Source: a virus. From it: DNA of 45,160 bases. This document shows, one piece after another, positions 18,126 through 43,708 of the stretch. The position numbers and the translations under genes are program-made. The number at the start of each line of letters is the position of its first letter. Position 1 is the first letter of the stretch. Below the pieces are notes generated by a model, which did not search any database, was not told where the DNA came from, and saw only the letters and a list, made by a program, of their open reading frames with translations. Where the stretch lies: positions 1-45,160 of IMG/VR virus record IMGVR_UViG_3300033148_004581. One strand, given 5' to 3'.

Positions 18126-18137
18126 CAAACACTCCTT

Positions 18138-18803: not shown

Positions 18804-18815
18804 AATTGTTTTCCT

Positions 18816-22899: not shown

Positions 22900-23666
22900 C
22901 CCTTAAACCTTTCATTATACTTTAACGCAAACTTGCACAACTCATCTCCTACTATCTCAAGGTCTGGACACAAGCAATGACCGCCCATTCCACCATCCAT
23001 ATGATCTATCACATACTTCCTAAACCTATTATCATCCAACTTCTCATACCCCCGGTTGTATGATGTGTTGAAATCCTTGTACACCACCCTGTAATCCAAA
23101 TCGTTATCCTTGCAATATTTATATATCGTTTTCTCTATCAATATGTTTATCCCGTATTGGTTCACGCTCCACAACTTCCCTGCTTCTGTATTCCTGCTCC
23201 CCGATACTATCCTACATGCTATCAACATATACTTCTCCATATGATCCTTTGCCTTATACCCTGCTTCTATATCATCACAGCCTATATATTTCACAAATGT
23301 TTTTAACCCCTCATATAAATTCGGATGTACTCCCCTTACCGGACTATGTACTGTTAACCTGTTACCATAACATTTACTAAAATAATTTGTCACACCTATA
23401 TCAACCGTACTATGTATTATTACCAATGTTTTATTAATTGCCCATTGTATCCCTGCTTCATGCACACTATCACAAAATCTTTTCTTCTCGTTATACGGAA
23501 CACATATATGCAAAACATCTAATACTTCCTTTTCATTCACCATACGCTTGCACAACTCTTCTTGCCTATCATATACATATAAATCAATATTGTTTACCGT
23601 TTTCTTCTTGTAACACCTCGCTATGCTCTTTCCTATCTGCCCATACCCTAATATTCCTATGTTCAT
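22896..23666 (-). CDS. UDP-glucose/GDP-mannose dehydrogenase-like protein
   Basis: A 256-residue protein. GILGYGQIGKSIA at residues 4-16 is a Rossmann NAD(P)-binding loop. HICVPY, IIHSTVDIGVT and HSPVRGVHPNLYEG follow in the order seen in nucleotide-sugar 6-dehydrogenases and related oxidoreductases. EAGKLWSVNQYGINI and GGHCLCPD correspond to the helical middle and the conserved Gly-Gly-His-Cys segment, where Cys is the catalytic nucleophile in the classic enzymes. It is shorter than cellular enzymes (usually above 380 residues), so it lacks most of the C-terminal sugar domain. It probably acts on a nucleotide sugar for glycan synthesis. Confidence 0.65.
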   Translation of the reverse strand: MNIGILGYGQIGKSIARCYKKKTVNNIDLYVYDRQEELCKRMVNEKEVLDVLHICVPYNEKKRFCDSVHEAGIQWAINKTLVIIHSTVDIGVTNYFSKCYGNRLTVHSPVRGVHPNLYEGLKTFVKYIGCDDIEAGYKAKDHMEKYMLIACRIVSGSRNTEAGKLWSVNQYGINILIEKTIYKYCKDNDLDYRVVYKDFNTSYNRGYEKLDDNRFRKYVIDHMDGGMGGHCLCPDLEIVGDELCKFALKYNERFKG

Positions 23667-24963: not shown

Positions 24964-26754
24964 CTATCTTCTCCTATCTAATGTTCTCTTACCGTACCTG
25001 CTCCTGAACAATCCCAACTCTCCGCTTGTTACTAATTCTATCTGCTTCTCCCCTACATGCTCGAAATTCTTCTCTGCTTTCTCCTGCTTATCATCTATCA
25101 TTACTACATCCCCTGTCTTTCTCCATGCCATCATACTGAATGCATGTGCGAATCTGAAATGGTCGTGATCCGTCTTGCTCCAATGGTACTCTTCCTTCTC
25201 GTTATCGTATATCCTTGTTATACTGCACATACTCTTCGCCCAATACCCGTTCAGCAACATCTCCCATCCCTTGGGTATTATCGAATATCCTAAATTATGT
25301 ATCTTCATTGCTTCGTCTAGTAACCATGTTCTATCTACCACTATTACCCCATCGTCCTTCTTCTCCTTGAACCCGTCTAACTTCAAATCACCGCTCCTTG
25401 CTTTCTTTATATCTATCCGTATCACTTCGCATATACCGTACATCTCTCGCTGAAACTCTTCTATTGCATTTCTCTCTGGCTGTGCATCTATACACAACAC
25501 TCCTATGTTATACCGTAACACCATCTCTTTTACTTCGTGCAAATCCTTACACCTTACTACGTTCAGCATCATCATCTTTATCTTGCCCTTGCTCTGTACG
25601 GGTAAATCTATCTCCATATCGTAATACGTTCCTACATCTACCCCTGCTACTGCCTTTGCTGTCTTGCTTCTCGGCTTTGCTATCTTGTGTATCCAAGTAT
25701 CGTCAAACCTCTGCAATACTGTATATTCTGCTCTGTTACATGATAACATCTCTAATGTTATCTTACTGCCTACCCCCTCGTACGGTAGCCCTGCCCACTT
25801 GTTAAACCATACCATTAACTTGTACTCGTTACCCTCTGCTTCTTGTAGCACCTCCCACATCTCCGTTAACGGACTGTTCAGCTTCATCATCTTGCCTATG
25901 TGATACCCGCTCCAATCCTTGTTCTTTGTCTCTGATTCATACTTTCCCTTCCCTCTGCTCTGTAAATGTCCACATATGGTACACTTCATCTTTATATCTC
26001 TACCCCCGTCCTCTTTCCATTCCTTATCGTACAACTCATACATTACATGGTTGCCGTCTGTATCGCATATCTCATCTATCAACACATCAAACGGATTCCA
26101 TGCAGGAAACCGCTTGCCACACTTCTCACACTTGAAATACCAATAGTTCTTTGTACTCTTATCGAACCTATCCGATATACCTATGCTCTTTACTGTTGGA
26201 TTACCTACTCTTATTTGAAACTTAAATATGCTGTTCTCCATCCTTGCTATTGCTTTCGCCAAGTTCTCTTCGTTGCAACTGTCCTCTTCATCTACCATCA
26301 ATACATCTGCCGGAAACTCATCGAAATCACTTGACGTACCGCTTACCGCAAACTTCCACACCCCTTCGCCTAAATTACGTATTACCATGTTCCTCTTGTT
26401 CATCCCGTCCCTCTCCATTGCCTGATATGCTGGCACTCTACCTACAAGATCGTTTATCCTTGTCTTTACGAAGCTGTTCTTTGCCTTGCCTGTACTGAAC
26501 ACATGGAATACACTTAATCCAAACCTCATGAAACTCATTCCCCGTATCAATTCAAACTCGCTCTTCCCTGTCTGCACACTGCTCTGTATAACTATCTTAG
26601 GTGACTTATCCTTGTATATCGGATATAGATAAGGCATATCATAAAAACTCATCGGCATATTATGTGTGTTCTTATGATGCTTTAAGAAAAATATCAAGCC
26701 CTGGTTCACTACATCCTGCAATACTTTCCTTGTTTGCTTTTCGTTATTATTCAT
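24964..26754 (-). CDS. Terminase large subunit
   Basis: A 596-residue packaging ATPase and nuclease. Walker A is SSVQTGKSE (58-66), with Lys64 and Ser65. Walker B is VLMVDEE (151-157). A zinc-ribbon insertion follows: C209-C212 and C258-C261, as in lambda gpA-type terminases. The nuclease half begins near 370 (AVAGVDVGTYYDMEI) and contains VLCIDAQPE and a late DHDHFRFAHAF, candidate metal ligands. The protein cuts and pumps DNA through the portal. It is unusually separated from the portal by about 3.5 kb of small and accessory genes. Confidence 0.88.
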   Translation of the reverse strand: MNNNEKQTRKVLQDVVNQGLIFFLKHHKNTHNMPMSFYDMPYLYPIYKDKSPKIVIQSSVQTGKSEFELIRGMSFMRFGLSVFHVFSTGKAKNSFVKTRINDLVGRVPAYQAMERDGMNKRNMVIRNLGEGVWKFAVSGTSSDFDEFPADVLMVDEEDSCNEENLAKAIARMENSIFKFQIRVGNPTVKSIGISDRFDKSTKNYWYFKCEKCGKRFPAWNPFDVLIDEICDTDGNHVMYELYDKEWKEDGGRDIKMKCTICGHLQSRGKGKYESETKNKDWSGYHIGKMMKLNSPLTEMWEVLQEAEGNEYKLMVWFNKWAGLPYEGVGSKITLEMLSCNRAEYTVLQRFDDTWIHKIAKPRSKTAKAVAGVDVGTYYDMEIDLPVQSKGKIKMMMLNVVRCKDLHEVKEMVLRYNIGVLCIDAQPERNAIEEFQREMYGICEVIRIDIKKARSGDLKLDGFKEKKDDGVIVVDRTWLLDEAMKIHNLGYSIIPKGWEMLLNGYWAKSMCSITRIYDNEKEEYHWSKTDHDHFRFAHAFSMMAWRKTGDVVMIDDKQEKAEKNFEHVGEKQIELVTSGELGLFRSRYGKRTLDRRR

Positions 26755-28860: not shown

Positions 28861-29994
28861 CTACATTTCCATGTGTCTGTCAAGAAATTTCCGCAAAAAA
28901 CCTATTTTTTCTTTCGCATATCCTACAAATACAAGTGTCCCCTGCATGTTCGTGGGGTCGCTCACCTGCTCTATCTCTATCAATTCTAAATACCTTCGTG
29001 CATATACAAACGCACTTATCATTCGCCCATGCCTATACATCCACGCAAACCTATAGAAACAATTATCTACCGTTAAATCCTTCTTTATATCTGTATGCAT
29101 CTCCAACATTTCATATACATCCCAATTCCCGTTCCTCATCATTACATCTACATACAGCAAACAAAATCTGTTATACCTCCACTTCCATTCGTTATCACAC
29201 ACCACAAATACCTTGTATATCTTCTTGTAATACTCTATCAATGTTTTTGTTTCTATTATACCTTCCCCCTCTAACAACATTGTCATTTTCCCTAGATTAT
29301 ACATATCCTCTATTTTATTTTCTGTCCACCCCTCTTCATCCAGTTCCTTTATGATCCTGTTTGCATGACGTTCTGTTCTATCTAGTCTTGCTTTCTCCTT
29401 CTTCTCTGTTGTATGCCCCATATGTACAAACATTATATTTGTACTCTTCATCTTTTCGTTCTTCATGTTATACACAGCATCTATCATCACGTAACCCTCG
29501 TTTGCTACTTTCCTCTCTACCCTGAAACAAAGCTGGTTATGTTCTCTCCCGCTGTAAAACACCTCTTTTCTATTCGGGAACACTCGAAACTGTTTCAACT
29601 GTGCATATTCAAATCCATCCTTATGTACCTGTTTGTGATGTGTTGTAAATATCGTATCTACATCAAACCTCAATATCAATTCTCTCATCTCGCTTGCATC
29701 TGTTTCAAGTTCTTCATCCGCATCTATTATGGCTATCCTTTTCCCACTGCACAAAGCCATACAACGATTCCTTGTATCTGAAAAACCAAAATCCTCTACG
29801 GGTATATCCTCTGTATGCAATTTAACTTTTACATCACTATTGTTATGTTTCCATTCCTTGATCTTCTCTATTGTTGTATCCGTGCTACCATTATCCAATA
29901 TAACAATCTCTTCTCCTACCCCCTTTATACTGTCCAAGCACTGTACTATAAAATCTTCTTCATCTCTACATATTATACTTACACTAATTTCCAT
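28861..29994 (-). CDS. Family 2 glycosyltransferase with helical C-terminal half
   Basis: A 377-residue protein. The N-terminus ISVSIICRDEEDFIVQCLDS and EEIVILDNGSTDTT are diagnostic of GT-A family GT2. SDTRNRCMALCSG and IAIIDADEELE supply the nucleotide-sugar and DxD metal motifs. The C-terminal about 180 residues are helical, as in protein- or peptide-glycosylating GT2 enzymes with TPR-like tails. It likely adds a sugar to a glycan or phage/host protein. I start at ATG 29994 (AAAGGA 6 nt upstream), not the GTG at 30021. Confidence 0.82.
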   Translation of the reverse strand: MEISVSIICRDEEDFIVQCLDSIKGVGEEIVILDNGSTDTTIEKIKEWKHNNSDVKVKLHTEDIPVEDFGFSDTRNRCMALCSGKRIAIIDADEELETDASEMRELILRFDVDTIFTTHHKQVHKDGFEYAQLKQFRVFPNRKEVFYSGREHNQLCFRVERKVANEGYVMIDAVYNMKNEKMKSTNIMFVHMGHTTEKKEKARLDRTERHANRIIKELDEEGWTENKIEDMYNLGKMTMLLEGEGIIETKTLIEYYKKIYKVFVVCDNEWKWRYNRFCLLYVDVMMRNGNWDVYEMLEMHTDIKKDLTVDNCFYRFAWMYRHGRMISAFVYARRYLELIEIEQVSDPTNMQGTLVFVGYAKEKIGFLRKFLDRHMEM

Positions 29995-30079
29995 GCTTTT
30001 TCCTTTTACTATCCACCACAAATCTCATAAAACACCCCAACAAAAAACAAACAACCCCAAGTATTATCCATCTAATCAT
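29984..30079 (-). CDS. 31-residue membrane peptide
   Basis: A 31-codon ORF: one hydrophobic helix (about residues 3-19, containing LLGC) and a basic tail. It begins inside the stop region of the upstream glycosyltransferase with an AAAGGA site 8 nt ahead and overlaps the next gene by 11 bp, so it is translationally coupled. It could be a tiny lipoprotein or a simple membrane peptide. Confidence 0.6.
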   Translation of the reverse strand: MIRWIILGVVCFLLGCFMRFVVDSKRKKHGN

Positions 30080-31307
30080 TCTTTGCATCCTTTAAAAACT
30101 GCTCATACACCCAGCTTTCAAACATCAAATCCTTATCCCTGCCCATACCATACATGCCCTGCTTCGTTATTTCCTTGCCCTGATACTTGTCGAATACATC
30201 AGTAGTTTTTGTATATTCTTCCCCTTCTATCATATGCTCTGCTTCCACCTTTTTGTAATCATGCTTTGCGTTTATTCTTTTATATAACGGTATCAGCTTT
30301 TTCTTTATCTCTTTATCAAACGTCCATCTGTGCCTGTCCTCTCCTATCATATTCATATCAAACATCTTCATTTGCTTTACATCACTATATATAAATCCAA
30401 GGTTATTATTCTTTACAAATTTGTTATGCTCCAAAAGATTATCCCTGCATAATATAGGTAATCCAGCACTAACATACTCAAACATCTTGTTGCTTAACCC
30501 CATATTCAAATGATCCTTGTTAAACATATGCGGTTTAAACGGTATCAGCCCTGCATCATACTGTGATATTTCATGCATCAGCCTATCATACGGAACATGC
30601 CCCATGCTATGCCATTCCCTATGCCCTCTTAACTTTGAATACTCATCCATTATTCTAGGTGCATACACATATAAATTATGACCCTCTTTCATTATATCCT
30701 CGAAATGTTTTATTAAATTCCTGTGATGTCCTTCCTGCGAAGATAATCCACCTGCATACACTATATTCAAACACCCCTTCTTCTTCTGGTTCTTTGTTTT
30801 TTCTATCTTCGGTTGCAGTTCCTTCGGTATGTATTTCTCTAACGGTGCATTATATATTATTGTACTCTCTACTTGTTGTTGCCCCGTATATTCATTTATT
30901 ATATCCCTCTGTGTTTCCGAACAATACAATGCATGATCCGCAAAACAATTAGCCATCTGTTCTGCCAATACTACAAATTCATTTACATTTTGCCTTCCAC
31001 TTACCCAATCATGGCAATCATGTATTACAGGTGTAGTATGTTTCTTCGTTGCTATAATTCCAAACCCTGTCCATATATCCGGTTCATTATGACAATGTAC
31101 TATATCAAAATACGGTGCAATATAAAAAAATGATGGATAACTATGCAAATAAAAATGTTCCGTATAACAATCCATTGGCATTTTATAATAATTTCTTATG
31201 TTATTGCTATTGTATGCCAAAGATATTTCTATACCTGCATCATTCAATACCTCTGCCATCTTATGCATTCTTATGCACGGTGCTTCCTGTACAAATAATA
31301 CTTTCAC
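30072..31307 (-). CDS. Family 4-like glycosyltransferase
   Basis: A 411-residue GT-B enzyme. The N-terminal Rossmann domain starts MKVLFVQEAPCIR and contains DIVHCHNEPD and PVIHDCHDW. The C-terminal domain has LNIVYAGGLSSQEGHH, MGHVPYDRLMHEISQYDAGLIPFKP and SNKMFEYVSAGLPILC, the nucleotide-sugar binding region of GT4-type enzymes. It would transfer a sugar from a nucleotide donor. It overlaps the downstream SAM enzyme frame by ATGA and forms part of the glycan cassette. Confidence 0.85.
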   Translation of the reverse strand: MKVLFVQEAPCIRMHKMAEVLNDAGIEISLAYNSNNIRNYYKMPMDCYTEHFYLHSYPSFFYIAPYFDIVHCHNEPDIWTGFGIIATKKHTTPVIHDCHDWVSGRQNVNEFVVLAEQMANCFADHALYCSETQRDIINEYTGQQQVESTIIYNAPLEKYIPKELQPKIEKTKNQKKKGCLNIVYAGGLSSQEGHHRNLIKHFEDIMKEGHNLYVYAPRIMDEYSKLRGHREWHSMGHVPYDRLMHEISQYDAGLIPFKPHMFNKDHLNMGLSNKMFEYVSAGLPILCRDNLLEHNKFVKNNNLGFIYSDVKQMKMFDMNMIGEDRHRWTFDKEIKKKLIPLYKRINAKHDYKKVEAEHMIEGEEYTKTTDVFDKYQGKEITKQGMYGMGRDKDLMFESWVYEQFLKDAKND

Positions 31308-31969
31308 AGCTTTACTCCTTTATGTCTTTTTATAAACGCATCGTGATTATCTATCGGTGGCGGTGAATCAAACGAAATTCTATAATTTATATGAACCTCG
31401 TTATCTGTTTTCGGCACCTTCCTTATTATTCCTGTGCCACAAGACCCTCTCCACTGTACCGAACTTCTAACCTCGATACTTTCATATTCTTCTTTCAACT
31501 CACAAAACAATCTATCCACTCCAAACTCCGTATGCTTTCCATTCGGCACTACTATATCATGGAATGCAATAAAACCACCATCTCTTACCATACCTAAAAA
31601 ATTTTCGTAATCTTTCTTTGCACCGTTATATGTATGGTTGCCATCTATGTGTAACAAATCAATCTTTCTATCCCCCATCAAATCCCTTACCGCATTTAAA
31701 ATCCCCGCACTTCCCGAATCACCAAATATCATTTTTGTGTTCTTGCTCTTCTCCCAATCCCATTCCATTTTATTCTGCTCATCTATACCCACAACAAATC
31801 CATCATCCCCGACTAATTCAGAAAACAAAAACAATGTACCGCCCTTGTTCGTTCCTATCTCCAAAACATTCTTTATTTCATATCTATCCAAAACCCAAAA
31901 CACACAATACAACTCTTCTCTTCTCTGCATAGAAAAATACTTGTCATAATCTCTATTAAATTTCTCCAC
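31304..31969 (-). CDS. Class I SAM methyltransferase (Methyltransf_24 / CmcI-like) A
   Basis: A 221-residue protein. VLEIGTNKGGTLFLFSEL is motif I of SAM methyltransferases; FVVGIDEQ follows. LLHIDGNHTYNGAKKDYENF and GGFIAFHDIV are the signatures of the CmcI / Methyltransf_24 group, often acting on sugars. The start is a GTG 8 nt after AGGAG. It is directly downstream of murB-like gene and is related to the methyltransferase at 32815-33399, which shares HIDG-HTYNG. Confidence 0.8.
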   Translation of the reverse strand: MEKFNRDYDKYFSMQRREELYCVFWVLDRYEIKNVLEIGTNKGGTLFLFSELVGDDGFVVGIDEQNKMEWDWEKSKNTKMIFGDSGSAGILNAVRDLMGDRKIDLLHIDGNHTYNGAKKDYENFLGMVRDGGFIAFHDIVVPNGKHTEFGVDRLFCELKEEYESIEVRSSVQWRGSCGTGIIRKVPKTDNEVHINYRISFDSPPPIDNHDAFIKRHKGVKL

Positions 31970-32818
31970 CTAAAAATCTCCTAACAATTTAATCTCTAGT
32001 TCTCTTGGCTGACCACTTATCTCTGTTATCTCCCCTATCACTCGCATCACATCTTCCGCTGTTGCTGTTCCATCATTACATATATATCTCTGATCTTTCT
32101 CGCTTATATATGCACCACCTATTTTAAACGGCTTTATATCCAGCATAAAATTCGGGTCTTTAAACACACACCCCGCACTCTTCTCATGTATCGGCTGTTC
32201 CTTTGACTTCTTCTTTATCTTATCCATCATCCGTTTCTTTATATTGACTTTATTGTCCTCTTTCAATTCTATTCCAACACTTACAATTATCCAATTCTCA
32301 TCCTGCAAAAGTGTATATCTGCTCTTGCTCCAATCTCCCATCTCTTTCTTGCTTATATACTTTCTCTTCCCCGTACTCAACCCTACAAATCCTACACCAC
32401 CTATGCAATGCTTTATCCCTTTATCATAACTTGCATTCATCACCACCGCTCCCCCTATTGTTCCCGGCACACACACTCCCCATTCCATACCGCTCAACCC
32501 ATTCTTCCATACTATCTGTGCCACCCTTGCTGTTTTCATCCCTGCTGGCACACTTACACCAATAAAATTCGCTCTTGCACTATTTTTCTTATATACTTCC
32601 CATCCCCACCTTTGATCCTTCATACATATCACTCTACCCTTTATCCCCTTATCGCTTATCAACACATTGCTACCGCCACCAAAATATGTTATCTTCTTAT
32701 CTGTTTCTATCGCACTATACACATCTGTTACATCACAAGGAAAACATATCTCTTCTGCTTTTCCACCTATACCAAATGTTGTCAGTCCCGATAAATCAAA
32801 ATCTCTATATATCTTCAT
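31970..32818 (-). CDS. murB: UDP-N-acetylenolpyruvoylglucosamine reductase (MurB)
   Basis: A 282-residue protein with all MurB hallmarks: LTTFGIGGKA (12-21), the FAD-binding GGGSNVLISDKGIKG (47-61), VPGTIGGAVVMNAS (117-130), SRYTLL with Arg167, SAGCVFKDP (214-222) with Cys at the catalytic Ser/Cys position, IGGAYISEKD, and ELEIKLLG with candidate catalytic Glu275. In cells MurB makes UDP-MurNAc, the second committed step of peptidoglycan synthesis, with FAD and NADPH. The length fits the short (type II) class. It is rare in phages and sits between two sugar-type methyltransferases. It may supply UDP-MurNAc, or a relative, for a phage-directed glycan. Confidence 0.9.
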   Translation of the reverse strand: MKIYRDFDLSGLTTFGIGGKAEEICFPCDVTDVYSAIETDKKITYFGGGSNVLISDKGIKGRVICMKDQRWGWEVYKKNSARANFIGVSVPAGMKTARVAQIVWKNGLSGMEWGVCVPGTIGGAVVMNASYDKGIKHCIGGVGFVGLSTGKRKYISKKEMGDWSKSRYTLLQDENWIIVSVGIELKEDNKVNIKKRMMDKIKKKSKEQPIHEKSAGCVFKDPNFMLDIKPFKIGGAYISEKDQRYICNDGTATAEDVMRVIGEITEISGQPRELEIKLLGDF

Positions 32819-33399
32819 TCCTTCTCCAATACAAAATCACCCCTGAATGATTGAATCTGATAATACTTCTTTATCGCCTTGTCATATTTATTTAAAAATG
32901 AAACTATCGCACCCCTTATACATGCTTTCCTGTAATCATCCACTACCATTATTCCACCGCTTTGCAATCCACCCCACATCAATTCCATATCATGCAAACA
33001 CCCGTTATACGTGTGATCACCGTCTATATGCACAAAATCATAACCGCCACTCCCTATTGGATTATCTGTAACACTCTGTGTATCTACATTCAATAACGTT
33101 ATCTTGTTTGCATCCGATACAGGTTCTAACAATTCATATACATAATCAAACGTATCCTTACCCACACCACCATGCTCACTGCTGAAACAATCAATTCCGT
33201 AATACCTCGCCTTTGGACACGCACATAAAAACGAATATGCGCTGTACCCATACCTTACACCTATCTCCGCTATTGCTTTCGGCATATACTTCTTGCATAT
33301 ATTATACTTATGCTTGTAATAATTGTACCGCAACTTGTCCTTTTTGTCCTCATCGTCTTTATGTATTATACCAATCCATTTTTTATACTTTGGAAACAT
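32815..33399 (-). CDS. Class I SAM methyltransferase (Methyltransf_24-like) B
   Basis: A 194-residue protein. IAEIGVRYGYSAYSFLCACP is motif I, then YGIDCFS. YDFVHIDGDHTYNGCLHDMELM and GGIMVVDDY match the group of the methyltransferase at 31304-31969. The C-terminus ends in a short strand (YYQIQSFRGDFVLEKE). It is expected to methylate a small molecule or sugar. It overlaps the murB start by ATGA, so both are translated together. Confidence 0.78.
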   Translation of the reverse strand: MFPKYKKWIGIIHKDDEDKKDKLRYNYYKHKYNICKKYMPKAIAEIGVRYGYSAYSFLCACPKARYYGIDCFSSEHGGVGKDTFDYVYELLEPVSDANKITLLNVDTQSVTDNPIGSGGYDFVHIDGDHTYNGCLHDMELMWGGLQSGGIMVVDDYRKACIRGAIVSFLNKYDKAIKKYYQIQSFRGDFVLEKE

Positions 33400-34143
33400 T
33401 TATTTATCCTCAAATAATAACATCTGACCCGCATCTTGTTCTTCAAATGTTAGCCCTGTTTTTGCTTGCTCACACCTCTTGGCAGACATCTCGCAATATT
33501 TTTCCTTGTCATCTATCAAAACACATTTTCTGTCCATTTTCATACATCCCACCCCTGTCGTGCCAGATCCGCAAAACGGATCAATAATTGATTCGCCTTT
33601 ACTTGAAAACTGGTTTATATTTTTTAAGATTATTTCAATGGGTTTGGGTGTAGGATGATCGATTGAGACATCTTGACCGTTTTTGTTTATATATGCAGTG
33701 CTTTTTTCTTTATAAGGAATATCCGGATAGTGAAATCCTTTATTTAAAAAACAAACACAATATTCACAGTCGTTTAGAAGCTTGTTGTTTACTAATGGTA
33801 CTGGATTTGTTTTTACCCAAGTTATAACATTGAACCTTTCTCCAACGAATTTTAACAAATCGGGGAGTTGTTTGCAACTGCACCATACAAGGCTTGATTT
33901 TGCCGATTTTAAAAGAATCGGCATATAAACAGATATATCAAAGTCGGGGGAAGATCCCACATCATCGTTTATTTCATTGTGCGTTTTTAACCTTGAACCA
34001 GTCATTAAACCTCCCTCATGTGCAAAATCACCACGATACGGTGGATCGGTCAGCATTAAATCCGCGGGTTCAAGTTTCGGCAATATATCCAGACAGTCAC
34101 CGTGATATATTGTAACTAATGCGTTCTCATAATACGATTCCAT
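33400..34143 (-). CDS. Beta-class DNA N6-adenine/N4-cytosine methyltransferase
   Basis: A 247-residue enzyme. TDPPYRG (about 32-38) is motif IV, and IIDPFCGSGTTG (about 186-197) is motif I with the FxGxG SAM site; the order IV before I defines the beta class. DPPY favours N6-adenine. The start is ATG 34143 behind GGAG, not the upstream 34182. There is no restriction endonuclease next to it, so it probably protects the phage genome or regulates. Its coding DNA has more G on the given strand than the surrounding C-rich cassette, suggesting separate acquisition. Confidence 0.85.
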   Translation of the reverse strand: MESYYENALVTIYHGDCLDILPKLEPADLMLTDPPYRGDFAHEGGLMTGSRLKTHNEINDDVGSSPDFDISVYMPILLKSAKSSLVWCSCKQLPDLLKFVGERFNVITWVKTNPVPLVNNKLLNDCEYCVCFLNKGFHYPDIPYKEKSTAYINKNGQDVSIDHPTPKPIEIILKNINQFSSKGESIIDPFCGSGTTGVGCMKMDRKCVLIDDKEKYCEMSAKRCEQAKTGLTFEEQDAGQMLLFEDK

Positions 34144-34145
34144 CC

Positions 34146-35099
34146 CTATTCTCCTAACAATCTTACAACATCTTCTACCCACTTCATGCTCTGTTCCAAT
34201 TGCGTATCTTTTATATGCATATAATTTATGTTCTTTATATTGTATGGTATATTCCTGTAAAACACACTCGCATTATCACACAATATCATACTATGCATCA
34301 TCATGTTTATCACCCGATCCATCTTACTATACGCATACACCATCTCCTTTGGCTCTCTATCAAACACCCCCTTCAATTCTATCCCCGACTTCTTCAGCTT
34401 GTCTATATTCCCACTGCAAGCCTTATGATGTTTGAAATAATATAAATCCATATCTGCGTTACTGTTTATCTCTTTTAACAAATACATTATATAATGCCAA
34501 TTCATATCCCTTGACAATCTCGCTCCCTCTGTATGCCCTGCCAAATTTATCCCTATATTGCACCGCTTCTCATTCACCCCTGTTTCAAACTTCTCACTCT
34601 TCAGAAAATATGCAGGGTCTTGTATCATTTTTATATCCTTTAACCCCAACTTCTCTGTAACGTATGCATATGTATATAAATCCCTTACGCTTGATAACGC
34701 TGTGAATTGATGCATAACTTTTATTGCTTCTTCTGCTTCTTTTGATAACGGCTTTTCTTTTGTTCCTAAAAAATCCATGTTCATTCCGCTACCCCATATC
34801 ACTATCGGTATATTTATATCTACATAATTCTTCCAATTGCAAGGAAAATACCAGTGTGCACCTTCATAATTCTTCCAATAAAAATTACTGTACAATCCGC
34901 TACCGCCTATTATCAGCATATCCCCATCTGCATTCATCCGCTCTATTACTTCCATTGTACATTCATCGTTATTCAAATCCATCTTCACCCATTCTATCTC
35001 ACCGCTGTATGCTTCTTCTACCATCTGCCATATACCTTCGTGTATTGCTCTATCTCCCAAATTCGTATTGTATATGTGATAATGATATATTTTTTTCAT
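34146..35099 (-). CDS. Polysaccharide pyruvyltransferase family protein
   Basis: A 317-residue protein. YNTNLGDRAIHEGIW, ADGDMLIIGGSGLY, IPIVIWGSGMNM, TALSSVRDLYTYAYV and MIQDPAYFL appear in the order typical of the polysaccharide pyruvyltransferase family (PF04230). Members attach pyruvate ketals from phosphoenolpyruvate to surface glycans such as exopolysaccharide or cell-wall polymers. It follows a small cysteine-rich protein by ATGA. Together with the neighbouring glycosyltransferases it points to modification of a surface polymer. Confidence 0.82.
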   Translation of the reverse strand: MKKIYHYHIYNTNLGDRAIHEGIWQMVEEAYSGEIEWVKMDLNNDECTMEVIERMNADGDMLIIGGSGLYSNFYWKNYEGAHWYFPCNWKNYVDINIPIVIWGSGMNMDFLGTKEKPLSKEAEEAIKVMHQFTALSSVRDLYTYAYVTEKLGLKDIKMIQDPAYFLKSEKFETGVNEKRCNIGINLAGHTEGARLSRDMNWHYIMYLLKEINSNADMDLYYFKHHKACSGNIDKLKKSGIELKGVFDREPKEMVYAYSKMDRVINMMMHSMILCDNASVFYRNIPYNIKNINYMHIKDTQLEQSMKWVEDVVRLLGE

Positions 35100-35257
35100 T
35101 TGCTCTCCGCTTTCTTTTTCCCTTTTAATATTGGACAGTTAGCTTGTTCACACTCATCAAACTCACCCTTTCTTTTATTGCAATATCTAAAATCTACTAC
35201 TGGCTGTCCATACTTGCAGTTTCGCCTTATTGTTCTCCAATCAAGCACATAATTCAT
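35096..35257 (-). CDS. 53-residue cysteine-rich protein
   Basis: A 53-codon ORF. It has RRNCKYGQPVVDFRYC, then DECEQANCPILKGKKK, giving four cysteines that may bind zinc, and a basic tail. ATGA overlaps link it to both neighbours, so it fills the 154-bp gap and is very likely a real gene. Function is unknown. Confidence 0.7.
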   Translation of the reverse strand: MNYVLDWRTIRRNCKYGQPVVDFRYCNKRKGEFDECEQANCPILKGKKKAESK

Positions 35258-36144
35258 TTCACATACCCCTTACATGCAAACCTCAAATTAGCCCCTGCCC
35301 ATTCCCTTATCATCTTCACATCTCTCTCTGCCTGTATCCTCTCCAAAGCTACACCCCTCAATGTTCTCAACGCTCCTACACTCATCTGATTTAACACCTT
35401 TATATAATCAAATATATTCTTTTCCTCTGACAACATCAACCCCCCGTTAAACCCCCTTAACTCCTGCATCTGCCCCACTCTTGTAGATATAACCAAACAC
35501 CCCCTGTTCAACGCATCAAACGCTGGCAACGGTGCACCCTCCATATATGATGTACACACATATACTGTATAATCATCCAATAATTTAATATACTCTTCCT
35601 CTGTTAACACGTTTTTCCTGCCCTTTTTTATATAAAACCTTATACCTTCCCCCTCACACCTTTTCTGTATGCTCTCTAACACGCTCATTTGCTTTCTGGG
35701 GTAGTCTTGACACACACTAATACAACTTACCCCTTGCTCCGTCAAACTCTCTCTGAAGGGCAACAGTGAAGCCGTGGCGGTATTGTGTGCTTCTACCCCA
35801 TGCATCTTTAATCTCTGCTTCATTTCAACACTTACCGTCAATATACCCCTCATCTTCTTCAATATCTCTATCCTGCCCTCTCTTAACCGCCCGTTTTCCT
35901 TCCAATCCTTATCATCCTCGTATATCTCACACGGATCATTTATCAATATTATGCTCTTATTCGGATTATAATTATACATCTCATATATTCCATACCACCC
36001 GAATATCACAAAATCGTAATCATCCAGCTTTAATTCTTTATCAAAGCAACTCCTTAACTCTACATCTTCATTCTCTCCATACCACAGCTTCCCTACGTTA
36101 TGTAATGCCCAATCTTTGTGATTATATATAAATGCTATTTTCAT
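35254..36144 (-). CDS. Glycosyltransferase, GT4-like
   Basis: A 296-residue protein. The N-terminus MKIAFIYNHKDWALHNV, then DFVIFGWYGIYEM, resembles a short GT-B donor half. The C-terminus has the more telling CTSYMEGAPLPAFDALNRG, then CLVISTRVGQMQELRGFNGG, the usual E-G region of GT4 enzymes. It is shorter than most GT4s (about 350-400), so the acceptor domain is reduced. It would act in the same glycan pathway. ATGA overlaps join it to YopX and the 53-residue gene. Confidence 0.72.
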   Translation of the reverse strand: MKIAFIYNHKDWALHNVGKLWYGENEDVELRSCFDKELKLDDYDFVIFGWYGIYEMYNYNPNKSIILINDPCEIYEDDKDWKENGRLREGRIEILKKMRGILTVSVEMKQRLKMHGVEAHNTATASLLPFRESLTEQGVSCISVCQDYPRKQMSVLESIQKRCEGEGIRFYIKKGRKNVLTEEEYIKLLDDYTVYVCTSYMEGAPLPAFDALNRGCLVISTRVGQMQELRGFNGGLMLSEEKNIFDYIKVLNQMSVGALRTLRGVALERIQAERDVKMIREWAGANLRFACKGYVK

Positions 36145-36491
36145 TTCTTCTCCAATAGTTCTGAGTTCTCGTATATGTTTCCGATTACTTCGACCTTGCG
36201 CATGTCGTGACCGCTTATACCACCCGAATAGGGTGTGTTAATATCGCCCAACTGATTCCAATAGAACCATGCGTGGCGATATGAATAGCAACATTGATAG
36301 CGCAAGCCGTTTAACTCGCCAACATCACCTTCATATATCTCCACCCCCTTCTTGTCCTGCAAGCCGGTGTATTGCATTAAAACAGTGCGTCCATCGTCTT
36401 GTTGCATGATACCGTCTAAGTTACACAGAACCTTTGGTGTTATTATTTCTTTATCTTTTTTATCCCACGCTCTAAACTTTATCTCTCTCAT
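36141..36491 (-). CDS. YopX family protein
   Basis: A 116-residue protein. REIKFRAWDKKDKE at the start, LMQYTGLQDKKGVEIYEGDVG in the middle and VEVIGNIYENSELL at the end are the unmistakable signature of the phage YopX family (PF09643). Function is unknown; the fold forms a beta-rich oligomer. It lies inside the glycosyltransferase cassette. Its DNA is less C-rich on the given strand than that of the neighbouring genes, a hint of separate origin. Confidence 0.9.
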   Translation of the reverse strand: MREIKFRAWDKKDKEIITPKVLCNLDGIMQQDDGRTVLMQYTGLQDKKGVEIYEGDVGELNGLRYQCCYSYRHAWFYWNQLGDINTPYSGGISGHDMRKVEVIGNIYENSELLEKK

Positions 36492-37216
36492 TTATTATCC
36501 TTTGGAACAATCTTTGTATCACCAATTTCTTTATCAACACTTTTCTTTTTAGGTATTTCCCATCTGTTAAAACATTCCAATTCCTCTTCCGTTATATGCT
36601 GTACGTACCCCATTTTATTATCCAACGTTCTTTGCCTACCACCCTTAAATGAAAAATATTGAAACTCATCCCTAAATCGTTCATGCCATAAATGCTCTGG
36701 CGGGTTTACTTCTGATTCTTTATTTATGCGGATAAACTCTGATAAATAATATGCCTTTACTATAAAAAAGCATTGCTGTATTTCCCACGGCAATCCATCT
36801 GCATCACCAAACATCAACGGCTTTTTCATTTCCTTGCAACAATTCTCTATTATATCTTCCCCCCACACCAAACAATCCTGCTCTATATACACGTAATAAT
36901 CATACCCCTTACACATACAATATTCCGCTCCCTTTATCACGCTATCTTTCCACCCCATGCTATGCCCTAAATTATTTGCCCTTCTATACCTAACTATCGG
37001 AACCGTATTTTGCAATCTTGTTGCCGGCACTACATCTGAATGTGCATCTGTTATCCATATCTCTTTTGCATTTGTGTATTTCTCTATATACTGATACCAT
37101 AACCTGAAAAAATCTGCCGTATGTGTTTTCGGTGATGCTCCCCACCGATCCACACCACCATGCTTTACCTTGCCGTCTAATGTATAATAACATCCTGTAC
37201 CAATTAAATATGACAT
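36488..37216 (-). CDS. GT-A-type glycosyltransferase-like protein
   Basis: A 242-residue protein. Central YDYYVYIEQDCLVWGEDII has the strand-DxD-like arrangement of GT-A enzymes (acidic residue pair after a hydrophobic strand). The N-terminus (WITDAHSDVVPATR) and YRRANNLGHSMGWKDSV fit a nucleotide-binding core. It belongs to no well known family. I start at ATG 37216, which overlaps the upstream stop (TGATG); the TTG at 37222 is less likely. It lies downstream of the GT2-GT9 fusion. Confidence 0.55.
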   Translation of the reverse strand: MSYLIGTGCYYTLDGKVKHGGVDRWGASPKTHTADFFRLWYQYIEKYTNAKEIWITDAHSDVVPATRLQNTVPIVRYRRANNLGHSMGWKDSVIKGAEYCMCKGYDYYVYIEQDCLVWGEDIIENCCKEMKKPLMFGDADGLPWEIQQCFFIVKAYYLSEFIRINKESEVNPPEHLWHERFRDEFQYFSFKGGRQRTLDNKMGYVQHITEEELECFNRWEIPKKKSVDKEIGDTKIVPKDNK

Positions 37217-38928
37217 CAACAAACCCCTTTTATCTTAAACGCTTCTGCAACTATCTCCATATGATCGAACTCCGCACATCTCCACACGCTACAATCCTTC
37301 CACTTATTCCCCCTGCTCCAATCATCCTCTTGGCAAGTACAATCCGTACTTACTACATGTGCAAATCTATGCATCCCGTTTGCATTACAATTTTTCTTCT
37401 TATTTGTTGCCGTAAATACAACTATATTTTCCTTTCCTATCAAGTTAGCAAAATGATATAACCCACAATCATTCCCCATAGCTGTTTTACATTCGTTTAT
37501 CAAATCGCAAGTTTCCAACAAACCTATATCTGTTAAATCCTCTGTTCCCTCCACCCAATCTCCATCTGCACTCAATCCTACACTCGCTACCGTAAAATCC
37601 CTACCAATCAATTCATCAACTACATCCTTCCATTTTTTATATCGTTTCCTATCCCATGATCCACTTCTGAAACCACCAGCATACAAAACAAAATCAAACT
37701 TCTTTAAATCCTTACCCCCATATCTATTCCCCCTTATCTGTTTCCAATTCAACGGTGTTGTACCCCTCACCCTCTTCATAAATACGCTGTCTATATTGAC
37801 TGGTTTTAACTTTGCAAATGCTTGAAAATTTCTTTTCACTTCATTTATATATGTTCTATCGCCACAATTCATCAATGTTCGCACACCCTTCACTTCATTG
37901 TTCTGGTAACTTGTGACCAACCCCCTAAACTCATCATGCCCAACCTTCTCTATCTCTTCTTCGCTTACAAATAAACTACCACCACAATATTCCACAATCT
38001 CTTTCAGCGGTTTCAACTTCTCCAAATTATCCTTATCCGGTCTAAAATGGTAGTAATAATCTACACGTTCATACAACAATAAAAGATTCAAAAATGTTGG
38101 CACCGTTTCCAATACATTACCCAACCCCTCTTGACAAGAATAAATCACCCTGCCCCATCTCTTGAACGGCTCAACCTTACCAACATCTATTCCGTGTATC
38201 ATATCTATCAACCCTATCTTTGGGTTCTTGTAATTCTCTATCCACCGCTTTGTTTTCAACGGGTCTTTTGCTCTTTCCTCTGGATTTATTAAACTATCTT
38301 TCGGTGATGTATGATACACCAAAGAATAATCAGTATAAAATATCTTTGCGTGTTTGTTTTTACGCAACACACATTTGCTAATCTGCCTCCACACACCGGA
38401 ACTTCCCTTTGATGTATCCGCAAGCATGAGTTTCCAACCCCACCGCTCCATATGTTCATATCTCAACAAACATATCCCATCTATCATCTGGTTAGGTATT
38501 CCATTTAACTTTGTCCATATTCTATTATCAAGAAAAAAACGCAATATCACATCGCATCCAGTATTATGCAACGACCTTTCGTATGTATCAAATAAACGCT
38601 TGAAAAAATCTTTGCACACATAACAATCATCTGGTAAAAATATGACAAATTCCGACCACTCTTCTTTTACAACTTCGAATATTATATTATATGTGTCCCA
38701 ATATCCACCGACCCCCCTATGAAATTCATTGTCTTTGAAATGTATCTTGTAGTTTATTAACTCCTGCTTTGATTCTATTTTCTTGTACGGCTCTCCACCG
38801 TCCTTCACTATATAATGTGTTACCGCATAATCATAGTTTCCTTCCAAATCATTCTTTATTGATTTTATCATTTTCTTTAACAATTTTTCTCTTAAATACG
38901 TTGTTGTTATTAATGCTATCTTTCTCAT
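37216..38928 (-). CDS. GT2 - GT9 (heptosyltransferase-like) fusion
   Basis: A 570-residue two-domain enzyme. Residues about 1-250 are GT-A: ALITTTYLREKLLKKMIKSI, then FVIFLPDDCYVC with the acidic pair. From about 262, GRVIYSCQEGLGNVLETVPTF is the N-terminal hallmark of family GT9 (LPS heptosyltransferases). DFVLYAGGFRSGSWDRKRYKKW and GNDCGLYHFANLIGKENIVVFTATN are the sugar-nucleotide C-terminal motifs. The fusion suggests that two sequential transfers are made by one protein, perhaps on an LPS-core-like acceptor. It may be the central enzyme of the cassette. Confidence 0.8.
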   Translation of the reverse strand: MRKIALITTTYLREKLLKKMIKSIKNDLEGNYDYAVTHYIVKDGGEPYKKIESKQELINYKIHFKDNEFHRGVGGYWDTYNIIFEVVKEEWSEFVIFLPDDCYVCKDFFKRLFDTYERSLHNTGCDVILRFFLDNRIWTKLNGIPNQMIDGICLLRYEHMERWGWKLMLADTSKGSSGVWRQISKCVLRKNKHAKIFYTDYSLVYHTSPKDSLINPEERAKDPLKTKRWIENYKNPKIGLIDMIHGIDVGKVEPFKRWGRVIYSCQEGLGNVLETVPTFLNLLLLYERVDYYYHFRPDKDNLEKLKPLKEIVEYCGGSLFVSEEEIEKVGHDEFRGLVTSYQNNEVKGVRTLMNCGDRTYINEVKRNFQAFAKLKPVNIDSVFMKRVRGTTPLNWKQIRGNRYGGKDLKKFDFVLYAGGFRSGSWDRKRYKKWKDVVDELIGRDFTVASVGLSADGDWVEGTEDLTDIGLLETCDLINECKTAMGNDCGLYHFANLIGKENIVVFTATNKKKNCNANGMHRFAHVVSTDCTCQEDDWSRGNKWKDCSVWRCAEFDHMEIVAEAFKIKGVC

Positions 38929-38939
38929 TTTTGTTTTTC

Positions 38940-40040
38940 CTATAAATATCCTAAATCTCTCAACCTTTTTTTATGCTCTTCATCACTATTACCTTTACCA
39001 TATTCCAACGTAACACTATCCAATAATTCATTCATATAAAAAACATCATCCCTACAATCAACATATTTCACAAACCCCTTTTCGTACATGCCATCCATTT
39101 TGTAATAACACATATCCGTTCCACCGTTCAAATTTGTCTGTATTGCCTTGTACTTCCCGTCATTGATACAACTCTTTAACACCCCTTCGTTTTCTGTTTC
39201 CGAATATACCCAATCATAACCAACCGCATCCTCTGGCATCAATGTATGCCTACCGCTTGTCAATCTGTATATATCGTCCTGCTTATCCAAACTCTTTATC
39301 GGTTTCCATATCAACGGCACATGCAATGTTTCCTCAAACAATTCCTGCTTGTGGCTCAACTCGTATTTCCCGAAATCATCTCCGTGATCCGAAGTTAAAT
39401 ATATATCTGTATTATCAAAATCAAACTTATCTAATATAACAGGCAACCACTCTTCGTCAAACCACTTCAATTTCGCATCATACAACTCGAACAGTTGCGG
39501 TAAACTTGGATCAATCAAATTATGATACTTGAACGGTAACGCTTTCTCGCCTCCTGTATGCAGATGAAAGAAATGCAACCAAACAAATACCGGCTTATCC
39601 TTTGGAAATTCATGCTTTTTAAAATTCTCTAGCCACAAATTCCCCTTATATCCACATTGCGTATGACTCCCCCACCTCTTTGATAAATCACTGTTCTCAT
39701 CTACGTAATCCCACCCCTTATTCATCCCGTACCCTCTTATCAACCCATCATATCCTGTAAACACCGCTGTATAATAACCCTGCTCCTGCAACCCTACCTG
39801 TATCATTCTTTTCTCTGGATGCATAGCACAGTCATACATTCTTCTTATCCCATGTTCATACGGATATAGCCCTGTCAACATTGAACAATGACTTGCTGGT
39901 GTATATGGTGCTGTTGCCTGTACGTTATGATACACAAAGGAGTTCCCCATCAACTCTTTTATGTTTTTCAAATCCACCATATCATTATGTATTACAGCAT
40001 CATACCTCCCACAATCTATTGTTATCAATATTTTATTCAT
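38940..40040 (-). CDS. Sulfatase / alkaline-phosphatase-superfamily hydrolase or transferase
   Basis: A 366-residue protein. The N-terminal ILITIDCGRYDA gives metal ligand Asp9. APYTPASHCSMLTGLYPYEHGIR has the sulfatase layout but with Thr47 where the active Cys/Ser normally stands, like the Thr nucleophile of LtaS and EptA-type phosphotransferases. IYLTSDHGDDFGKYELSHKQELFEE supplies Asp-His metal ligands. So it may hydrolyse sulfate or phosphate esters or move a phospho-group. No membrane segments are present, unlike LtaS or EptA. A role in glycan or lipid decoration fits the neighbours. Confidence 0.78.
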   Translation of the reverse strand: MNKILITIDCGRYDAVIHNDMVDLKNIKELMGNSFVYHNVQATAPYTPASHCSMLTGLYPYEHGIRRMYDCAMHPEKRMIQVGLQEQGYYTAVFTGYDGLIRGYGMNKGWDYVDENSDLSKRWGSHTQCGYKGNLWLENFKKHEFPKDKPVFVWLHFFHLHTGGEKALPFKYHNLIDPSLPQLFELYDAKLKWFDEEWLPVILDKFDFDNTDIYLTSDHGDDFGKYELSHKQELFEETLHVPLIWKPIKSLDKQDDIYRLTSGRHTLMPEDAVGYDWVYSETENEGVLKSCINDGKYKAIQTNLNGGTDMCYYKMDGMYEKGFVKYVDCRDDVFYMNELLDSVTLEYGKGNSDEEHKKRLRDLGYL

Positions 40041-41064
40041 TTGTCGTTATCCTACTAAAATCTCTCCTTGCGTAGGGTACTTTTCCCTTACGCTTTTCCA
40101 AACATATATTATATTTCTGTTGACACCAATTTTTCAAATCATCCTTCCTTATATAATACTCACCCATAAAATAATTTATCACATCCCTCAACATATAATT
40201 CCCCCACACATCCCCGAATACTATTCCGCTCTGCAACCTCGGATTCCAGTCTATCAATTTCCATCCTCCATCACCGCTCTGTGCATGCTTAAATTGAAAT
40301 CCATGTACACCATACAACTGATTCATCTCCCCCAAAAACTCACATACATCATATACATGCTCAAAAAATTCATGCTTCGCCACCGTTGTTTTTCCATCCA
40401 TCTCTTCCATCCTCTTCCTCATTAGCATCTCTTGTATCATCCCATCATGGTAAAGCACATCAACACTCAAAAGAAAACCATTACAATATTCCTGAAAGTA
40501 CCAATCATCTTTATTCAATTTTGGATAAGGTATATCACCATAATACCACCTCTCTTTACCAGACTTCACAACACCTATATCTTTACCAAAAGAATTGATA
40601 TTATCCGTTACAACATAAAAACCCCTACCACCATTACTGCTTTTCTTTTTCAAACATGCCCTATCTTCCTTCTCTGATACCAAAGGATACAATTCATTTA
40701 TAAATCCCTCATCAATACTTAATATTTTCGGCACTACATATTCAAAACCGCTACCGTCCAACATATCCCACAACTTTCCCTCTGTAAATTCGGTCAACAA
40801 CAAGTTGCCTGTTCCGAATACAGACTTATCCATCACTTCTGGCTCAAACATAAAATCATGCAATTTTTGCGTATTCAACGGTACAAATAAATCAATCTCA
40901 CCATACCTCTTTGCAAACTCACTCACATCCTCCACCCCATCATAATCATTTTTTAACTTCCTATCTATCCGTATGATCTCTACCTCTGGTTCATACCATT
41001 TTTGTATGTTTCTGCAAATGCTACTGCCACCAATTCCCTCACTTCCAAAAACCATAATTCTCAT
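40033..41064 (-). CDS. ATP-grasp ligase-like protein
   Basis: A 343-residue protein. The N-terminus FGSEGIGGSSICRNI resembles a pre-ATP-grasp Rossmann domain. ACLKKKSSNGGRGFYVV is the glycine-rich ATP-binding strand, YFQEYCNGFLLSVDVLY the central strand pair, and WKLIDWNPRLQSG the acidic metal-binding N-x-R region, as in carbamoyl-phosphate-synthase-like ligases. Such enzymes join carboxylates to amines or thiols. The substrate is unknown; it overlaps the start of the sulfatase-like gene, so both act together in expression. Confidence 0.75.
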   Translation of the reverse strand: MRIMVFGSEGIGGSSICRNIQKWYEPEVEIIRIDRKLKNDYDGVEDVSEFAKRYGEIDLFVPLNTQKLHDFMFEPEVMDKSVFGTGNLLLTEFTEGKLWDMLDGSGFEYVVPKILSIDEGFINELYPLVSEKEDRACLKKKSSNGGRGFYVVTDNINSFGKDIGVVKSGKERWYYGDIPYPKLNKDDWYFQEYCNGFLLSVDVLYHDGMIQEMLMRKRMEEMDGKTTVAKHEFFEHVYDVCEFLGEMNQLYGVHGFQFKHAQSGDGGWKLIDWNPRLQSGIVFGDVWGNYMLRDVINYFMGEYYIRKDDLKNWCQQKYNICLEKRKGKVPYARRDFSRITTNE

Positions 41065-43120: not shown

Positions 43121-43708
43121 TCATTCCACTATCCTTATTGCTTCAAATATTTCTGCATACTGCTTCCCAACCTTGCCACCATAATGTTTTGCCAACTCAA
43201 TAAATTTATCACCATCAAAATAATCTCTCCAATCTTGACTTTTAAAACATTTTATCCCCTGTATCTTTTTCTCTATATCCTCTTTCTCCAATACGCTAAA
43301 AACATCCGAATCTATTTTAAACACATTCCACTCAAGAATATATCCAAGAATACTGCAATATTTAAAACACCTCAAAGATTCTTTATATATCTGTTGATGG
43401 TCTTGGTGTATGTCTGCACCACATGGGATAAACACTAAATCTGGCTTATAGGATTCTTTTATCTGTAACATCTTATCAAGTATTTGCTGTCTATCTCTTC
43501 CAAAATTTCTCACTTCAAAGTTGTGGGCAAAACCTTTTATTCCAAACAATGTTTTATATTCATTAAACTCTTCAACTAAATCTGTTCTATCAACAAAAGA
43601 AAAACAAACCTCTTTCACCTCATGCCCAAGCCGAACATGCTTTGCTATTGTTCCACCCATTGAAAAACAACCATCATCCGTATGCCCACTTAATACAAGC
43701 ACCTTCAT
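43121..43708 (-). CDS. PIG-L/LmbE-family deacetylase
   Basis: A 195-residue protein. KVLVLSGHTDDGCFSMGGTIAKH carries the zinc ligands of the family (usual form HPDDE-L--GGT) with His-Thr-Asp-Asp; FIPCGADIHQDHQ supplies the third ligand and His. The length is typical. These zinc enzymes remove acetyl groups from N-acetyl-glucosamine in lipids, mycothiol or glycans. With the glycan cassette nearby, a GlcNAc-type substrate is plausible. I choose ATG 43708, which overlaps the upstream stop (ATGA) and has GGGAG 9 nt upstream. Confidence 0.82.
   Translation of the reverse strand: MKVLVLSGHTDDGCFSMGGTIAKHVRLGHEVKEVCFSFVDRTDLVEEFNEYKTLFGIKGFAHNFEVRNFGRDRQQILDKMLQIKESYKPDLVFIPCGADIHQDHQQIYKESLRCFKYCSILGYILEWNVFKIDSDVFSVLEKEDIEKKIQGIKCFKSQDWRDYFDGDKFIELAKHYGGKVGKQYAEIFEAIRIVE

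Follow-up and report, generated by a model that had tools for sequence, protein, structure and literature searches.

The window analyzed here is the whole of a virus record from IMG/VR, 45,160 nucleotides long. Pfam and PHROG matches identify a terminase large subunit (TerL), a portal, a protease-capsid fusion, a tape measure and tail genes, which bears out an earlier note that placed the locus inside a phage genome. All open reading frames named in that note are present at the positions it gave, on the minus strand, and overlap or nearly abut (Table 1). Glycan-related genes are mixed in among the phage genes, and the main cassette adjoins the packaging and head genes. Because the record is a fragment of a phage genome, membrane or export genes could lie beyond the sequence.

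Table 1. Coordinates and best evidence for the phage landmarks and glycan-related genes of the window. "Sister" gives amino acid identity to the homologue in the sister phage.
Feature	Position	Strand	Evidence
IMGVR_UViG_3300033148_004581, whole record	1-45,160		
Portal, head morphogenesis, tape measure and tail genes	4758..21460	(-)	PHROG matches
Fused prohead protease-major capsid protein	15681..18128	(-)	phrog_4523/133
g24, sulfotransferase-domain protein, outlying	21740..22309	(-)	PF00685 32.9 bits, cut-off 22; sister 51%
g28, short NDP-sugar-dehydrogenase-like protein, outlying	22896..23666	(-)	TIGR03026 E 6e-5, sub-cut-off; sister 41%
TerL, gpA type	24964..26754	(-)	PF05876, 45.8 bits
g37, GT2 glycosyltransferase	28861..30021	(-)	PF00535 57.2 bits, cut-off 23.3; DxD-like DADE; sister 31%
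g38, GT4-type glycosyltransferase	30072..31307	(-)	PF13439 32.4 bits, cut-off 28.5; sister 40%
g39, SAM methyltransferase	31304..31969	(-)	Methyltransf_24, 60.2 bits
g40, MurB-type FAD reductase, partner of g43	31970..32818	(-)	PF02873 45.7 bits; PRK13905 E 3e-53; sister 48%
g41, SAM methyltransferase	32815..33399	(-)	Methyltransf_24, 56.6 bits; sister 44%
g42, N6/N4 DNA methylase	33400..34182	(-)	PF01555 75 bits; sister 38%
g43, polysaccharide pyruvyltransferase family (PS_pyruv_trans)	34146..35099	(-)	PF04230 70.6 bits, cut-off 25.3; sister 49%
g44, GT4-like glycosyltransferase	35254..36144	(-)	PF13692 25.4 bits, just below cut-off 27; sister 38%
g45, YopX family, not a glycan enzyme	36141..36491	(-)	76.3 bits
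g46, probable GT-A-fold transferase	36488..37222	(-)	conserved EQDC motif; sister 42%
g47, two-domain GT2 + GT9 protein	37216..38928	(-)	PF00535 24.2 and PF01075 22.9 bits, both barely above cut-off
g48, alkaline-phosphatase-superfamily enzyme, Thr nucleophile	38940..40040	(-)	PF00884 61.8 bits; sister 41%
g49, ATP-grasp-like ligase	40033..41064	(-)	PF15632 28.5 bits, under cut-off 29.1
g53, PIG-L deacetylase, outlying	43121..43723	(-)	PF02585 44.2 bits

The phage genome encodes about a dozen soluble enzymes that assemble or decorate sugars. None of the cassette proteins scanned contains a membrane segment, with no 19-residue stretch above KD 1.3. Pfam confirms the enzymes proposed earlier as GT2, GT4 and GT2-GT9 glycosyltransferases, MurB, pyruvyltransferase, two Methyltransf_24 enzymes and a PF00884 protein; less secure are g44 and g49, which score below cut-off, and g46, which has no Pfam match. 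The sister copy of g44 exceeds the PF00534 cut-off. Compared with the PDB, a low-confidence structure model of g46 (pLDDT 62, pTM 0.71) resembles GT-A/NDP-sugar-transferase folds (E 9e-6, TM about 0.5), and g46 is probably a GT-A-fold transferase. Among the flanking genes, PIG-L and the sulfotransferase domain are above cut-off, whereas the nucleotide-sugar-dehydrogenase assignment of g28 is weak. The g28 GGHC motif is common to the window and the sister phage; its predicted structure was too poor for use.

The "sulfatase-like" label for g48 is correct at the level of the superfamily but not of the sulfatase motif. The nucleophile region reads Y-T-P-A-S-H in place of the C/S-x-P-x-R of sulfatases, and the sister homologue (YTPAAI) likewise lacks C/S-x-P-x-R. 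Because Thr occupies the nucleophile position, g48 is not a formylglycine sulfatase, and its sequence points to a phosphotransferase or phosphodiesterase. Sulfate removal is unlikely since g48 lacks the formylglycine motif; the gene that speaks for sulfation is g24, with its sulfotransferase domain.

Two SAM enzymes had been listed in the cassette. The small-molecule methyltransferases g39 and g41 fit this description, but the interspersed DNA methylase g42 and YopX gene g45 had been left out. DNA-base glycosylation is a frequent role of phage glycosyltransferases, and the presence of g42 within the gene run raises the possibility that these enzymes glycosylate phage DNA. This is very unlikely. 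No base hydroxylase, hydroxymethylase or TET-like gene was recognized in the scanned genes of this genome fragment or in the translations of the sister phage, and we know of no DNA-modification pathway that includes MurB, PF04230, PIG-L or PF00884 proteins. g42 itself is probably not a glycan enzyme.

Searches of viral contigs with TerL or g47 alone, or with an alignment of two capsid sequences, gave no matches; hand-made degenerate capsid and MurB patterns did find relatives. The search of other phage genomes for the gene set that the earlier note had called for returned a sister phage (IMGVR_UViG_3300030616_000025, G001) that has TerL, portal, capsid and tail genes in common with the window. 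Eleven glycan-related genes are present in both genomes (g37, g38, g40, g41, g43, g44, g46, g47, g48, g24 and g28). Their reading frames are intact and their amino acid identities (31-51%) are like those of the structural genes (31-55%). Gene order in the sister cassette is rearranged; the g37 homologue follows the g38 homologue within a single fused ORF of 835 aa, and g47 has two homologues, one with GT9 only. PF04230 and MurB were not seen in the available fragments of three further TerL relatives (47-48%).

These data support the earlier proposal of a dedicated phage set for glycan assembly and decoration. The set diverges as the structural genes do, catalytic residues are not generally lost, and the MurB and phosphatase-superfamily motifs are kept. 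Host-chromosome contamination or a chimeric assembly is extremely improbable, even though the cassette genes tested had no homologues, or doubtful ones only, in named phage isolates. The sequence is a virus record, the genes are interspersed with phage genes, codon usage is similar (r 0.91), and host contamination was ruled out by the sister genome with the same gene set.

Scanning 2.9 million viral contigs for a MurB motif yielded 13 stretches, and MurB was encoded in nine records. PF04230 was present in 7/9 of the MurB-bearing records versus 0/24 MurB-less records (p 8e-6), and the association persisted when near-duplicates were removed (p 1e-4). Two MurB-bearing records, G005 and G007, had no detected PF04230. 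In all seven pairs the genes lie on the same strand and are either fused, adjacent or no more than about 1 kb apart; in the window two genes stand between g40 and g43. Fusion ORFs occur in both orders, with MurB first in phage G003 and PF04230 first in a bacterial contig and in Paracoccus plasmid pAES7. Glycosyltransferases are found in all pair-bearing phages, several of which carry their glycan genes between terminase, portal and capsid genes. Cellular pairs occur in Cetobacterium, L. brevis and Novosphingobium, in each case within a polysaccharide locus.

Searches for bacterial relatives returned none for the PF04230 protein and, for MurB, nothing beyond housekeeping types. PF04230 genes in 287 Patescibacteria had no MurB neighbor in the 30 loci read, with flanks of about 1.5 kb. 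MurB in named "phage" records was rejected as phage evidence; most of these records lacked annotation, and an Enterococcus record contained chromosome-typical uppS-cdsA-like and exporter genes. The MurB tree suggests several phage acquisitions, and the number is left unclaimed because its cellular sample is biased. Searches of an open-access library turned up no described PF04230-MurB pair and nothing on phage pyruvyltransferases. The new element is a pairing, seen repeatedly in unrelated phages and in bacterial polysaccharide clusters, of a PF04230 pyruvyltransferase and a MurB homologue.

g40 consists of FAD_binding_4 (28.5 bits) and MurB_C domains, both above cut-offs. Arg159 and Glu325 of MurB have been assigned to the carboxylate and Asn233 to the diphosphate (PMC12844806). 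The g40 residues Arg167, Cys217 and Glu275 are the equivalents of Arg159, Ser/Cys229 and Glu325, and an Asp occupies the Asn233-type site. The same pattern extends to the paired MurBs (n = 12), which retain the Arg and Glu in 12/12 cases each and the Ser/Cys in 10/12. Asn/Arg at the UDP-diphosphate contact is found in 2/12 paired MurBs versus 30/31 housekeeping MurBs. The proton-donor site is Gly in phage MurBs G002 and G005 and Thr in L. brevis. It is quite improbable that g40 is a stray host gene supplementing peptidoglycan precursor synthesis. The protein does score as a MurB (Table 1), but it falls below every NCBIfam MurB cut-off (TIGR00179, 110 versus 144.5 bits; PRK13905, 180.7 versus 259), its diphosphate-contact residue is lost, the cassette has no MurA, and MurB is tied to PF04230 in several phage lineages.

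The glycan had been described as pyruvylated. A PF04230 enzyme is indeed present, but the description probably falls short: the partner of this enzyme is a MurB-type reductase, which suggests that the product is a reduced (lactyl) one. We know of no PF04230 enzyme that makes an enolpyruvyl ether, and g43 scores 37 bits against the CsaB model TIGR03609 (cut-off 213). PF04230 members with biochemically characterized activity all form ketals (PMC6801904). An ordinary pyruvate ketal, with the MurB-like flavoenzyme engaged in something unrelated such as sugar redox modification, would fit this record and the replaced proton donors, but is a rather doubtful reading given the recurrent PF04230-MurB linkage, its constant order, the independent fusions and the retained Arg and Glu that bind the enolpyruvyl carboxylate.

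The interpretation we favor, tentatively and at somewhat less than even odds, is that the phage has its own cytoplasmic glycan set with an enolpyruvyl-then-reduce step. About five glycosyltransferase proteins would build an oligosaccharide, to be modified by the two Methyltransf_24 enzymes, the Thr-type phosphatase-superfamily enzyme and the ATP-grasp ligase, and probably by the PIG-L and sulfotransferase-domain proteins. With PEP as the donor, the PF04230 enzyme would place on a sugar hydroxyl an enolpyruvyl group that the MurB-type flavoenzyme would then reduce to a lactyl (1-carboxyethyl) ether. Enolpyruvyl-type chemistry has precedent in MurA/MurB and in F420 assembly. This would yield a negatively charged sugar resembling muramic acid, probably not formed on a UDP-sugar, and the glycan would most likely be attached to virion proteins during head and tail assembly. 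The enzyme set is solid, and its domains, catalytic motifs, conservation in the sister phage and recurrent PF04230-MurB linkage are observed; we infer the lactyl product, the reaction order and virion protein as the target. Several observations count against this reading: the ketal-only characterized PF04230 enzymes, the proton-donor replacements, G005 and G007 with no detected PF04230, the surface-polysaccharide context of cellular pairs, which fits host-surface modification equally well, the two genes between g40 and g43, and three TerL relatives whose available sequence lacks the pair.

A virion protein is favored as the target because the cassette has no membrane protein and adjoins packaging and head genes. 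The same enzymes could instead modify the host surface (LPS, capsule or teichoic acid) and block superinfection or hide the cell. Serotype conversion by prophages is a known strategy, the PF04230-MurB pairs of cells occur within Wzx/Wzy or teichoic-acid-type loci, and CDP-glycerol-transferase-like and IspD/TarI-like genes adjoin the G003 fusion. A host-surface target is possible but unlikely, given the location next to the packaging and head region and a cassette that, in what are incomplete fragments, includes no flippase, lipid-carrier or membrane protein.

Phage glycosylation is usually framed as the modification of DNA, as serotype conversion or as simple glycans on the virion. About a dozen enzymes inherited as one set suggest that this phage makes a complex, charged glycan. 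Lactyl-ether sugars are known from bacterial polysaccharides, and the PF04230-MurB pair provides a concrete two-enzyme hypothesis for their formation outside peptidoglycan synthesis. A more speculative extension, to which we give limited credence, is that PF04230 and a specialized MurB may form a general MurA-independent module for lactyl (1-carboxyethyl) ether sugars of bacterial polysaccharides, acquired by several phage lineages to build methylated, muramic-acid-like glycans on their own virions. If true, many genes now annotated as "murB" or "pyruvyl transferase" in phages and capsule loci would be annotated differently.

The proposed step resembles the MurA/MurB step of peptidoglycan synthesis in its PEP-derived enolpyruvyl group, its reduction by MurB and the same catalytic Arg, Ser/Cys and Glu. 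It differs in that PF04230 replaces MurA, that the contact to the UDP diphosphate has mostly disappeared, and that the genes lie in glycan operons rather than a cell-wall cluster. The ketal pyruvyltransferases CsaB, GumL, WcaK and Pvg1p belong to the same Pfam family as g43, and to our knowledge no characterized member has a MurB partner. The loci of Paracoccus pAES7, Cetobacterium, L. brevis and Novosphingobium plasmids share the same pair in the same order with glycosyltransferases near, although some also have a flippase or polymerase; they carry family-level annotation only, and their function was not described in the literature searched. Prophage Gtr serotype conversion also uses phage-borne glycosyltransferases, but it requires membrane GtrA/GtrB and a lipid-linked sugar, whereas this cassette has no membrane protein. 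Large glycosylation clusters have precedent in the mycobacteriophages, which are unrelated to the window phage and combine phage-encoded glycosyltransferases with methyltransferases; we know of no PF04230 or MurB in them. Their glycans on capsid and tail-tube proteins serve as a shield, according to Freeman et al. 2023 as cited in PMC12619734. The window phage would resemble them in bearing phage-associated glycans, and like such clusters it combines several glycosyltransferases, encoded by a genuine phage genome, with conservation within the phage lineage.

Every gene assigned in the window, a whole, linear IMG/VR virus record that is probably a genome fragment, lies on the minus strand. In the direction of transcription, from right to left, the order is PIG-L with a nucleotidase that bears an intein, the glycan run, large terminase, portal, head morphogenesis, a fused protease-capsid, tape measure and tail. 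The glycan-enzyme run reported in the earlier note is confirmed inside this phage genome with corrections. The "two SAM enzymes" are two Methyltransf_24 genes with a DNA methylase besides, and a YopX gene also lies inside the run. The "sulfatase-like" gene is present, but has Thr at the nucleophile position and lacks the C/S-x-P-x-R motif in both the window and its sister phage G001. The proposed GT-A-like gene has no Pfam hits, and its predicted model has a GT-A/NDP-sugar-transferase fold with modest confidence. The apparent intein carries a LAGLIDADG domain, starts at about Cys50 and ends at the HN/S boundary ahead of SVAQHC; its intein-splicing Pfam hit is weak and the PHROG hits are split. 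Protein g2 is small and similar to the N-terminal region of tail fibre g6; this duplication recurs in G001 (s74, s78).

Positions of features in the window and in other virus records
Record	Position	Strand	Feature
Window	625-1056	-	g2, small protein
Window	2253-4721	-	g6, tail fibre
Window	28861-41064	-	Glycan-enzyme run
Window	36488-37222	-	GT-A-like gene
Window	43705-45048	-	5'-Deoxynucleotidase-like gene split by apparent intein
L166 (IMGVR_UViG_3300032516_004471)	6244-7179		WbpD-like acetyltransferase and DNA methylases upstream of terminase
L154 (IMGVR_UViG_3300005918_000172)	7754-13425		Phage MurB-PF04230 fusion and neighbours
L130 (IMGVR_UViG_3300027901_000377)	8723-14145		MurB-containing glycan run of a phage
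L158 (IMGVR_UViG_3300006345_001308)	662-3116		T4-like fragment with MurB gene

Single-sequence scans gave no close relatives of the window, and G001 (IMGVR_UViG_3300030616_000025; 69 kb) was recovered with a degenerate MurB pattern across all viral contigs. The structural module is common to both genomes, as are eleven glycan-related genes (g37, g38, g40, g41, g43, g44, g46, g47, g48, g24 and g28). Besides these, G001 has genes for a DegT aminotransferase, an acetyltransferase of the hexapeptide type (WbpD-like by eye), a GT8-like protein and another Methyltransf_24 enzyme. Gene order is unlike; in G001 most of the run sits between terminase and portal, and the g38-g37 homologues are one fused gene. 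Glycan genes are 31-51% identical at the amino-acid level and structural genes 31-55%, divergence is highest at third codon positions throughout, and all frames are unbroken. Cassette and structural genes resemble each other in codon usage (r 0.91; GC3 0.39 versus 0.32). These properties indicate that the cassette has long been co-inherited with the phage under purifying selection rather than being a recent host insert, and together with the G001 gene sharing they contradict its being a fragment of a host chromosome. The earlier note's interpretation is supported in part: the co-inherited set speaks for a dedicated phage glycan system, and the "sulfatase-like" gene is unlikely to remove sulfate. 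PF04230 and MurB were not seen in the fragments of three relatives nearer by terminase (47-48%), one of which (G018) carries a GT2 and a WbpD-like acetyltransferase (by eye), so glycan content varies within the group. L166, a TerL relative, has a GT2 fragment where its contig begins.

Across 2.9 million viral contigs, only 13 stretches fitted the MurB pattern. PF04230 was present in 7 of 9 MurB-encoding virus records and in none of 24 records without detected MurB (Fisher p 8e-6; 1e-4 with near-duplicates removed, records being treated as phylogenetically independent). The geometry is constant and always on the same strand: PF04230 precedes MurB, adjacent or one or two genes apart, in the window and five other records (G001, G002, G006, G008, G013), and G003 and G004 encode a fused protein in the order MurB-PF04230. 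In G006 and G008 the pair is placed between terminase and portal, in G013 between portal and protease-capsid; glycosyltransferases accompany it in all scanned pair records (the 8-kb fragment G004 was outside the scan). The L154 fusion, set between portal/minor-capsid and scaffold-like genes, is next to two DXD-type (GT32-like) transferases and to IspD/TarI-like, SDR and CDP-glycerol-transferase-like genes (by eye). The L130 run has several glycosyltransferases and LicD-like and TagD-like genes (by eye); PF04230 was not found there, and the MurB proton donor is Gly. The L158 MurB gene retains Asn at the diphosphate site and adjoins helicase and peptide-deformylase-like genes. At least one public phage-labelled record (L220, OR846590.1; also MT83xxxx records) resembles a bacterial chromosome piece; counting "phage" MurB hits calls for care.

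In bacteria, a contig encodes an 817-aa PF04230-MurB fusion within a teichoic-acid-type cluster, Paracoccus plasmid pAES7 encodes a fused 845-aa PF04230-MurB protein, and the two genes are adjacent or near-adjacent in polysaccharide loci of Cetobacterium, Levilactobacillus brevis and Novosphingobium. The existence of fusions in both domain orders argues for a shared pathway. All 12 paired MurBs retain the two residues, Arg and Glu, that bind the carboxylate of the enolpyruvyl group, and 10 of the 12 have Ser or Cys as proton donor. Asn233 of Escherichia coli MurB, with Tyr190 and Lys217, contacts the substrate diphosphate (PMC12844806). The equivalent position, identified through the G-[SC]-x-F-K-[NR] context, which is conserved, carries Asn or Arg in 30 of 31 housekeeping MurBs, a set that leans to Patescibacteria, versus 2 of 12 paired MurBs (p 4e-7; rows non-independent). 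Judged from these residues, paired MurBs appear to have kept the chemistry and lost the UDP handle, so the enolpyruvyl group on which they act is probably carried by a molecule other than UDP-GlcNAc.

In the known routes to lactyl groups (MurA/MurB; F420 assembly), an enol unit is transferred from PEP and a flavoenzyme then reduces it. PF04230 enzymes form ketals with PEP as donor, and few are characterised (PMC6801904). The simplest explanation for the pair is that the PF04230 enzyme would add an enolpyruvyl group that the MurB-type enzyme would reduce to a lactyl ether, and the other cassette enzymes would assemble and O-methylate the glycan. The main alternative for its target is a glycan made on the host surface; there is no membrane protein among the cassette enzymes and the cassette adjoins packaging and head genes, which makes a virion protein the likeliest acceptor. 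Phage glycan clusters are already known; what is new here is the PF04230-MurB pair, of which no published description was found in the open-access literature, and the breadth of the enzyme set.
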